The position numbers and the translations under genes are program-made. This document shows, one piece after another, positions 13,672 through 51,524 of a stretch of 64,000 nt of DNA. Source of the DNA: Mycobacterium sp. Z3061 (lineage in GTDB: Bacteria; Actinomycetota; Actinomycetes; Mycobacteriales; Mycobacteriaceae); contig NZ_CP134062.1 of NCBI RefSeq assembly GCF_031583025.1, positions 5,677,234-5,741,233 on the forward strand. Direction: 5' to 3'. Below the pieces are notes generated by a model, which saw nothing but the letters and a program-made list of their open reading frames with translations, searched no databases and was not told the origin of the DNA. Position 1 is the stretch's first letter. The number at the start of each line of letters is the position of its first letter.

Positions 13672-13740
13672 GTCGGTCCAAACTTACCGCTGCCGGCTGA
13701 CAGTGCGCCGGTGGCTGTGCGGCAGTTCCATGCGAGGTTT

Positions 13741-13770
13741 TTGCGCACGTCCACCACTTGGTGGCACACT
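13741..13770 (+). promoter_or_regulatory. Putative promoter of the chorismate mutase leader transcript
   Basis: A -35-like TTGCGC and a -10-like CACACT are separated by 18 bases. The -10 keeps the A2 and T6 positions that matter most in mycobacterial promoters but lacks the leading T. Transcription would begin about seven bases after the -10, which is the GTG of the leader peptide at 13777, giving a leaderless message. Transcript start data are needed to confirm this. Confidence 0.4.
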
Positions 13771-13776
13771 CGGTGC

Positions 13777-13836
13777 GTGCTCAACACGCAGCCCCGATTT
13801 TTCTACGGGTACCGGCCAGCGGTGCCCGTGGTCTAG
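13777..13836 (+). CDS. Aromatic-rich leader peptide of a putative attenuator
   Basis: The 20-codon frame GTG...TAG encodes VLNTQPRFFYGYRPAVPVV. Four of five consecutive residues, Phe-Phe-Tyr-Gly-Tyr, are products of the pathway that the downstream gene, chorismate mutase, starts. This is the classic logic of a ribosome-stalling leader such as pheL. No Shine-Dalgarno sequence precedes the GTG, but the promoter-like element places the transcript start at the GTG, and leaderless translation is common in mycobacteria. The frame remains open further upstream and includes a Trp-Trp pair, so a longer leader is possible. Translation is inferred. Confidence 0.55.
   Translation: MLNTQPRFFYGYRPAVPVV
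13805..13829 (+). promoter_or_regulatory. Leader hairpin over the peptide codons
   Basis: ACGGGTACC (13805-13813) pairs with GGTGCCCGT (13821-13829) over nine positions with one G-U, leaving a 7-base loop. It begins inside the Phe/Tyr codon run, so a ribosome stalled there would prevent it from forming. Confidence 0.5.
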
Positions 13837-13847
13837 CTGCTTTCGCA

Positions 13848-13890
13848 GAGCCCCGTGGTCCGCTTCCGGATTCGGGGCTCGTTTCTTGTG
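13848..13890 (+). terminator. Intrinsic terminator in the chorismate mutase leader
   Basis: GAGCCCCG (13848-13855) pairs with CGGGGCTC (13873-13880); the apex contains a second small stem TCCG-CTTC-CGGA, and the hairpin is followed by the T-rich GTTTCTTGTG. It starts 11 bases after the leader stop codon and ends 60 bases before the chorismate mutase ATG. A second copy of the 5' arm core, AGCCCCGA at 13790-13797, could pair with TCGGGGCT at 13872-13879 and compete with the terminator. Confidence 0.6.
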
Positions 13891-13950
13891 TGAGGCCGAA
13901 ACCGGATGAGACCAGAACCACCACCTCACGAGAACGCGGAGATTGCAGAA

Positions 13951-14220
13951 ATGAACACAGAGACGATCGGCACAGATCAGCTCAGCATCGACGAGTTGCG
14001 CCAGGAGATCGACCGGCTGGACGCCGAGATCCTGGCCGCGGTCAAACGACGCGCCGAAGTGTCCCAGGCGATCGGCAAAGTCCGGATGGCCTCCGGCGGC
14101 ACCCGGCTGGTGCACAGCCGCGAGATGAAGGTGATCGAACGCTACAGCGAACTGGGTCCCGAGGGTAAAGACCTGGCGATGCTGCTGTTGCGTCTGGGCC
14201 GGGGACGACTCGGCCACTAG
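13951..14220 (+). CDS. Chorismate mutase, AroQ type (Rv0948c type)
   Basis: Protein of 89 residues from ATG 13951, preceded by GCGGAGATTGC as ribosome site. An ATG at 13906 would give 104 residues and keeps an N terminus (MRPEPPPHENAE) resembling the longer annotated Rv0948c. The all-helical AroQ pattern is clear: DELRQEIDRLDAEILAAVKRRAEVSQAIG, then TRLVHSREMKVIERYSELG, and the C-terminal LLRLGRGRLGH tail. It converts chorismate to prephenate, the first step specific to Phe and Tyr. In M. tuberculosis this small enzyme is weak alone and activated by the DAHP synthase AroG, with the C-terminal tail involved. The leader upstream suggests transcription attenuation by aromatic amino acids. Confidence 0.92.
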   Translation: MNTETIGTDQLSIDELRQEIDRLDAEILAAVKRRAEVSQAIGKVRMASGGTRLVHSREMKVIERYSELGPEGKDLAMLLLRLGRGRLGH

Positions 14221-51451: not shown

Positions 51452-51524
51452 GCCCCCGTAGCTCAGGGGATAGAGCACGGCTCTCCTAAAGCCGGTGTCG
51501 CAGGTTCGAATCCTGCCGGGGGCA
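51452..51524 (+). tRNA. tRNA-Arg (anticodon CCT)
   Basis: All four arms fold: acceptor GCCCCCG/CGGGGGC, D arm GCTC/GAGC, anticodon stem CGGCT/AGCCG with loop CTCCTAA (anticodon CCT), T arm GCAGG/CCTGC with TTCGAAT, and discriminator A. CCA is not encoded. Length is 73 bases. A CTTTTT run follows and may terminate it. tRNA genes of this type often serve as integration sites, and genes outside the expected synteny follow. Confidence 0.97.

Follow-up and report, generated by a model that had tools for sequence, protein, structure and literature searches.

We found, upstream of the chorismate mutase gene of Mycobacterium sp. Z3061, what is very probably a leaderless, ribosome-mediated transcription attenuator of that gene, a putative switch responding to phenylalanine and tyrosine. 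The stretch of DNA analysed, here called the window, comprises 64,000 nucleotides of a 6.79-Mb genome in one contig, and all parts of the element lie on its forward strand. In related genomes the element is conserved, its stems carry compensating changes, its codons are retained, the spacing of promoter and start codon is kept, and the gene that follows is chorismate mutase. Our model adds to this a start site at the first leader codon, translation of the leader, ribosome stalling, termination and a response to Phe or Tyr, each of which we put forward as a prediction.

A sequence-only reading had described a 19-residue leader with Phe-Phe-Tyr-Gly-Tyr before chorismate mutase, and this description holds. 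The leader ORF (13777-13836) encodes MLNTQPRFFYGYRPAVPVV in 19 codons, opening with GTG at 13777, the putative +1 position, and closing with TAG at 13834-13836. Two Phe codons (13798-13803) are followed by Tyr (13804-13806), Gly and a further Tyr (13810-13812); the proposed sensor is Phe-Phe-Tyr (UUU UUC UAC, 13798-13806), whose aromatics are kept in leaders of the genus and of outgroups. The downstream gene (13951-14220) begins with ATG at 13951, has GGAG upstream of it at 13938-13941 and encodes a type II, AroQ-type chorismate mutase (PF01817, E 3.1e-12). Its neighbours are a divergent UvrD-type helicase gene and phosphoglucose isomerase. Upstream of the leader, a -10-like CACACT (13765-13770) sits inside a conserved TGGCACACT, 6 nt before the GTG, and a -35-like TTGCGC (13741-13746) lies 18 nt upstream of the -10. 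A fixed-consensus scan for sigma-70 promoters found none in 13680-13980. Three loci of the 64-kb window, the leader included, have short ORFs of 10-40 codons in which four or more aromatics fall within five codons.

Two hairpins follow the first Phe codon. Hairpin 1 (13803-13831; regions 1 and 2) is real and slightly longer than the 13805-13829 given earlier: in the minimum-energy fold its arms, 13803-13814 and 13820-13831, form 12 bp and overlap the Tyr codons of the leader. The hairpin previously called a terminator was confirmed as a candidate intrinsic terminator (13848-13889; regions 3 and 4), with a stem of 13848-13855 and 13873-13880, an inner helix and a U-rich tail, GTTTCTTGT, at 13881-13889. 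The proposed antiterminator (13827-13855; regions 2 and 3) would pair 13827-13840 with 13845-13855, taking in the stop codon and the 5' arm of the terminator. The folding energy of 13777-13890 is -55.7 kcal/mol; dinucleotide shuffles average -39.1 (z -4.9; 0/200 as low). A pattern scan of 13680-13980 returned two terminator-like sites where 0.3 were expected; both are inner parts of one hairpin, the full 13848-13880 stem being hidden by the loop limit of the scan. No Rfam 15 family, the Phe leader included, reached the gathering level at the leader locus, where the best weak match was sX15 (E 0.62, 18.7 bits vs 55 needed). The sole gathering-level match within the window was a tRNA gene at 51452-51524.

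The element is widespread in the genus. By protein search, 195 of 198 genus genomes have a chorismate mutase. An RNA model of the element (R1, E<=0.01) matched 350 of 396 genus genomes, or 324 of the 362 of good quality, counts in which the 81 sequences used to build the model match by construction. The genome of the window has one R1 match only; G164, G535 and other genus genomes have two or three each. Beyond the genus, presence is patchy: at E 0.01 R1 matched 80 of 251 genomes of the family, many of them weakly, with strong matches in genera g10, g12, g18, g22 and g24. Many other genera of the family to which the window belongs either lack the element or have it in a form that went unrecognised. 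Some family upstreams differ in kind. Four loci of one genus (L074, L075, L076, L113) have divergent leaders ending LWRYFTCPG.RCT and a terminator by the rule of our script. Four others (L057, L111, L114, L116) have a leaderless-type upstream ORF (MSSVL... or MSCVL...) with no similar aromatic run and no terminator by script, and these are possibly remnants.

Among the matches listed for a DNA pattern of the core were loci in Pseudonocardia, Actinomycetospora and Rhodococcus. Fifteen of 18 pattern-found loci reach the next gene, which was always chorismate mutase (in L303, identified from DNA). Across the order, a broader RNA model (R2, E<=1e-4) matched 227 of 397 genomes, representing 59 of 85 genera. 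Sixty loci were taken from the stronger matches among the 189 matching genomes of the order outside the family; in 59 of them chorismate mutase lies downstream on the same strand, and in the remaining one the contig ends too soon. A class-wide R2 search matched 25 of 296 genomes, six of these outside the order (one strongly: G1027:C77:9022-9120, E 9.9e-11). The element thus belongs mainly to one bacterial order, that of the mycobacteria.

The position of the leader relative to its promoter suggests a leaderless transcript. From the genus we extracted 132 upstream regions, about the better-listed two thirds. In 121 of them a -10 motif and a start codon (GTG in 111, ATG in 10) are separated by 6 nt (95), 7 nt (25) or 8 nt (1), under a script that accepted 5-8 nt only. 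Two further leaders with a variant -10, one of them stopping early, bring the genus set to 123, and the -35 stretch reads TTTGC in 112 of these and TTGC in nine. When the core set the reading frame and any distance was allowed, the first in-frame start codon after the -10 motif in 116 genus leaders (one other has no -10 motif) lies at 6 nt in 68, 7 nt in 24, 8 nt in one and 3 nt in 23, the last an in-frame TTG. The same test outside the family (n=58) gave 6 nt in 27 and 7 nt in 18, the motif being absent in 10 and three starts lying far off. When the best -10 of the script (5-8 nt accepted) was used for the 60 order loci, the spacing was 6 nt in 35, 7 nt in 21, 5 nt in three and 8 nt in one. 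We infer that the transcript would begin at the first codon of the leader, as had been supposed from the window alone; by this spacing, its 5' end would lie at or close to 13777, and a start beyond 13890 is disfavoured.

Both hairpins are conserved and compensated, so that the comparison with related species proposed in the sequence-only reading came out in favour of its stems. In the 81 sequences (74 from the genus), 96.5% of cells are paired in hairpin 1 and 93.1% in the terminator with its inner helix. Four pairs of hairpin 1 show double changes. Together the two stems hold 19 double-change cells, a number reached in 0/500 shuffles, and slid partners gave 3-10; the number of pairs with a double change, five, was reached by 75/500 shuffles. 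In 46 more diverse sequences (A2), seven pairs and 28 cells are double-changed (1 and 0 of 500 shuffles), with terminator pairs going from A-U to C-G and from G-C to A-U. Among 58 unique outgroup cores, pairing in hairpin 1 holds in 86.5% of cells and 35 cells are double-changed (0/500 shuffles each); slid versions of the hairpin pair in at most 39.2%. An all-pairs covariation analysis with a tree-based null, which has low power, gave nothing significant.

Four loci (L156, L161, L162, L192) carry four linked changes (A1 columns 15, 37, 70 and 93) that preserve hairpin 1, the antiterminator and the terminator, three mutually exclusive helices. They share a longer leader, MDN...LEWRRRF, and L170 has three of the four changes. 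As these loci look like one clade, the linked changes may be one history. In L164 the stretch with the 3' half of the terminator is duplicated in tandem.

The antiterminator first suggested for this leader paired 13790-13797 with 13872-13879. The copy of the terminator 5' arm core on which it rested, AGCCCCGA at 13790-13797, is present in the window, but it is not conserved (5/123 genus and 0/60 outgroup leaders), and an exact 7-nt complement of the terminator 3' arm precedes the core in only 5/116. Pairing of 13827-13840 with 13845-13855 takes its place in our model. A loop-loop pairing of hairpin 1 with the terminator (CCGG..AGCGG with CCGCU..CCGG) is 84% paired, with one pair unpaired in 32/79. 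It was dropped, though above slid and shuffled controls, because it would only make a pseudoknot.

Outside the mycobacteria, a predicted counterpart of this antiterminator is well supported. In the outgroups, the five bases that end hairpin 1 read CGUGG, CGUGA or CGCGG. Of 26 unique outgroup loci (L318, which looks mycobacterial, among them), 23 have the exact complement of these bases at the terminator base, whereas shuffled linkers give a mean of 3.1 and a maximum of 8 (500 shuffles). When the types were cross-compared, a locus had the complement of another type in 24 of 326 cases. Order-wide, with 72 unique pairs, 0/1000 swaps and 12/500 within-family swaps reach the native mean, in a test whose hairpin finder, for many loci of family f14, picked up no more than a short inner stem. 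Within mycobacteria the outgroup-type complement is nearly absent (2/136 exact). The best equivalent in the window, 13827-13840 with 13845-13855, has 87.2% of cells paired in A1. For the antiterminator energy of 162 mostly mycobacterial sequences, 15/40 swaps were as low and all 20 shuffles were lower; a half-swap of 106 mycobacterial segments was mildly favourable (1/60 as low, mean z -0.6, 58/106 below the shuffle mean). Thus, the pairing of 13827-13840 with 13845-13855 is a plausible antiterminator in the window, for which comparison within mycobacteria is weak.

We folded the transcript up to 13862 with the ribosome masked, by assumption, as 15 nt either side of the P site. With no ribosome and the 3' arm of the terminator absent, hairpin 1 forms at a probability of 0.98. 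The antiterminator reaches 0.80 when the ribosome stalls at Tyr3, 0.79 at Tyr5, 0.40 at Phe1 and 0.27 at Phe2; for the Phe2 stall the best fold is a competitor that also uses the terminator 5' arm. With the ribosome at the stop codon, neither hairpin 1 nor the antiterminator forms. Once the 3' arm is present, the terminator dominates at equilibrium whichever ribosome state is assumed (0.97-1.00), and the switch can therefore only be kinetic. The trp attenuators are taught as kinetic switches.

We propose the following model. When charged tRNA-Phe and tRNA-Tyr are ample, the ribosome would reach the stop codon at 13834-13836 and cover region 2 and part of region 3; the terminator (13848-13880) would then form, and transcription would stop at about 13889. 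Under a shortage of Phe or Tyr, the ribosome would wait at UUU-UUC-UAC (13798-13806), covering region 1. Region 2, that is, the 3' arm of hairpin 1 with the stop-codon stretch, could then pair with the terminator 5' arm, and polymerase would continue into chorismate mutase. With no ribosome on the leader, hairpin 1 would form between regions 1 and 2, and the terminator would form as well.

The persistence of the second hairpin in all ribosome states at equilibrium also fits a different reading, in which a leaderless upstream ORF acts on chorismate mutase translation or mRNA stability and the hairpin is merely a stabiliser or a processing site. The Cys leaders of mycobacteria offer a parallel: according to the available text of the sources, they have no conserved terminator hairpin (PMC1262725) and are termed translation attenuation (PMC13236596). 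Here, however, 116 of 123 genus leaders keep the second hairpin GC-rich in its stem and T-rich in its tail, as scored under a loose script rule with no shuffled control, and so do outgroups of different sequence. It also ends about 50 nt upstream of the chorismate mutase ribosome-binding site (13938-13953). We therefore consider an effect on translation or stability unlikely and prefer transcription attenuation.

Of the aromatic run in the leader, the part proposed as the sensor, Phe-Phe-Tyr, is largely kept among relatives. Phe1 is Phe in 116/117 genus and 67/67 outgroup leaders. Position 2 is aromatic in 99/117 and 50/67 (18 and 17 non-aromatic), position 3 in 102/117 and 58/67, and Gly4 is kept in 115/117 and 67/67. 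These tables leave out as unalignable 6/123 genus and 2/60 order leaders. The 67 outgroup leaders (58 from the order, nine from the family) exclude 16 pattern-found loci, because the DNA pattern itself fixes two codons. They were found with an RNA model containing these codons, related species among them are not independent, and their anchor, an aromatic or Leu three residues before Gly, favours conserved leaders.

The fourth aromatic, Tyr at 13810-13812, fared differently. This fifth-position Tyr is Tyr in 109/117 genus leaders and in only 32/67 outgroup leaders, where Asn, His, Pro, Ile, Thr, Cys or Val replaces it. Its codon lies in hairpin 1, whereas the Phe1 codon and two bases of Phe2 sit 5' of the hairpin. 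Across 69 unique cores, pattern-found ones included, the first base of the codon pairs as U-G in 37, A-U in 14, C-G in 10, U-A in three and G-C in one, and is unpaired in four. The hairpin largely sets the Tyr 13810-13812 codon, so that the sensor would be Phe-Phe-Tyr, which is kept for itself. The full FFYGY run is found in 81 of 116 genus leaders with a terminator and in two of seven without one, an association that is not clear. At the first Phe codon, 113/117 genus and 65/67 outgroup leaders use UUU, a preference for which the hairpin gives no reason. By comparison, UUU makes up 49 of the 424 Phe codons in 31 long ORFs selected from the window by base composition.

The same comparisons bear on the idea that the 19-residue peptide is itself functional, as a conserved small protein. 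The peptide end, RFFYGYRPAVPVV, is strongly kept within the genus. However, relatives differ in the length of the N-terminal half and in its sequence (whole peptide 10-34 residues), and outside the genus the end reads GNRTPAPV, GHRVPVSV, GPGTPAPV and so on, alongside compensating hairpin pairs, so that mainly Phe-Phe-Tyr-Gly is retained. We give the small-protein explanation very little weight beside an attenuator whose codons are read by the ribosome.

Some lineages have lost parts of the element. By script, the leader is absent in nine of 132 genus upstreams. In four loci (L041, L135, L188, L194) the promoter is kept and the chorismate mutase start lies 6 nt after the -10; in a fifth locus, L033, the first codons of the leader are fused to chorismate mutase. 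These five loci look like natural deletions that left a leaderless enzyme gene. A chorismate mutase start 6 nt from the -10 fits a transcript starting at the first codon of the leader. Such lineages would serve as natural controls in which the promoter is retained and the enzyme gene itself is leaderless. The leaders of L039 and L136 have early stops, and the terminator is absent by the rule of the script in L035, L045, L132, L133, L142, L151 and L172. In L034 and L035, both 3.27-Mb one-contig genomes, the leader peptide is still in frame; L035 is without a terminator by script. That some lineages without the leader transcribe chorismate mutase directly might suggest a plain leaderless promoter with a fortuitous hairpin and no regulation, but an element found in 59 of 85 order genera, with compensation in both stems, makes this highly improbable.

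The attenuator kind proposed here is already known; as far as we have searched, the chorismate mutase leader is a new member of it. In Escherichia coli, the pheL leader has its own ribosome-binding site and controls a bifunctional pheA. Both systems place a Phe-rich leader before chorismate mutase activity, and by our model the leader of the window would follow the 1:2, 2:3, 3:4 logic of pheL. They differ in that the E. coli target is bifunctional and its leader has a ribosome-binding site, whereas the leader of the window is putatively leaderless.

For the aroR-aroF attenuator of Corynebacterium glutamicum, leaderless leader transcripts were reportedly described by Neshat and colleagues in 2014. 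In the available text of the sources, the aroF leader peptide contains Phe-Tyr-Phe and transcription is raised on Phe limitation (PMC4046766, PMC11802643), and Tyr availability is without effect (PMC11802643). By that description, the system is like ours in having an aromatic leader peptide, it occurs in a relative of mycobacteria, and its Phe response is of the sort predicted here. Tyr sensing by the leader of the window is less sure, because this related leader responds to Phe and not to Tyr. The two leaders also differ in target: that of C. glutamicum controls a DAHP synthase (aroF), whereas that of the window precedes chorismate mutase. Read by eye, the genome of the window has no such leader within 420 nt of type II DAHP synthase and none before prephenate dehydratase; both genes (L347, L348) seem to start close after -10-like sequences.

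Mycobacteria themselves are said to use leaderless poly-Cys attenuators (Canestrari, 2020). In the parts of the literature available to us, such attenuators are described in mycobacteria (PMC4633059); they share with our element the genus, an upstream ORF that is leaderless (putatively so in our case) and codons specifying the amino acid whose pathway is regulated, and they differ in sensing cysteine and in having no conserved terminator (PMC1262725). The ilvB leader of Mycobacterium tuberculosis, in the available account, combines a leader peptide, a terminator and an antiterminator in the same genus, but it concerns branched-chain amino acids (PMC13236596). The main text of that paper, as far as available, never mentions chorismate, phenylalanine or aromatic. 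The mycobacterial leaders covered in the available texts of PMC4633059, PMC13236596 and PMC4974804 are those for Cys and branched-chain amino acids. Streptomyces lividans likewise has actinobacterial leaderless leader peptides before amino-acid genes, and the accessible text names eight leaders (Leu, Trp, Ala, Ile, Met, Thr), none for Phe or Tyr (PMC8079986). The 2005 survey of actinobacteria, in its available part, lists candidates for the metabolism of Trp, Cys and Leu together with ileS T-boxes; upstream of genes from other amino-acid pathways it reports no such structure (PMC1262725). Among the openly available papers searched, no account came up of an attenuator ahead of chorismate mutase in this group of bacteria; the short-ORF lists that supplement PMC4974804 and PMC9094748, to judge from the available text, may already include the leader ORF.

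A broader hypothesis follows the element through its order. It holds that an ancient Phe-Phe-Tyr switch, order-wide and older than the split of mycobacteria, Pseudonocardia and the other families, has controlled the chorismate mutase branch point ever since, has its first sensor codon locked to the rare, wobble-read UUU and works as a tuned sensor of charged tRNA-Phe with initiation at the 5' end of the transcript. We regard this as an even call.

In sum, the leader precedes the enzyme at the Phe/Tyr branch point in most of the mycobacterial genomes sampled and in much of their order. Because of this position and its wide distribution, we propose that it may be a control point, directly testable, in a pathway that is absent from animals.
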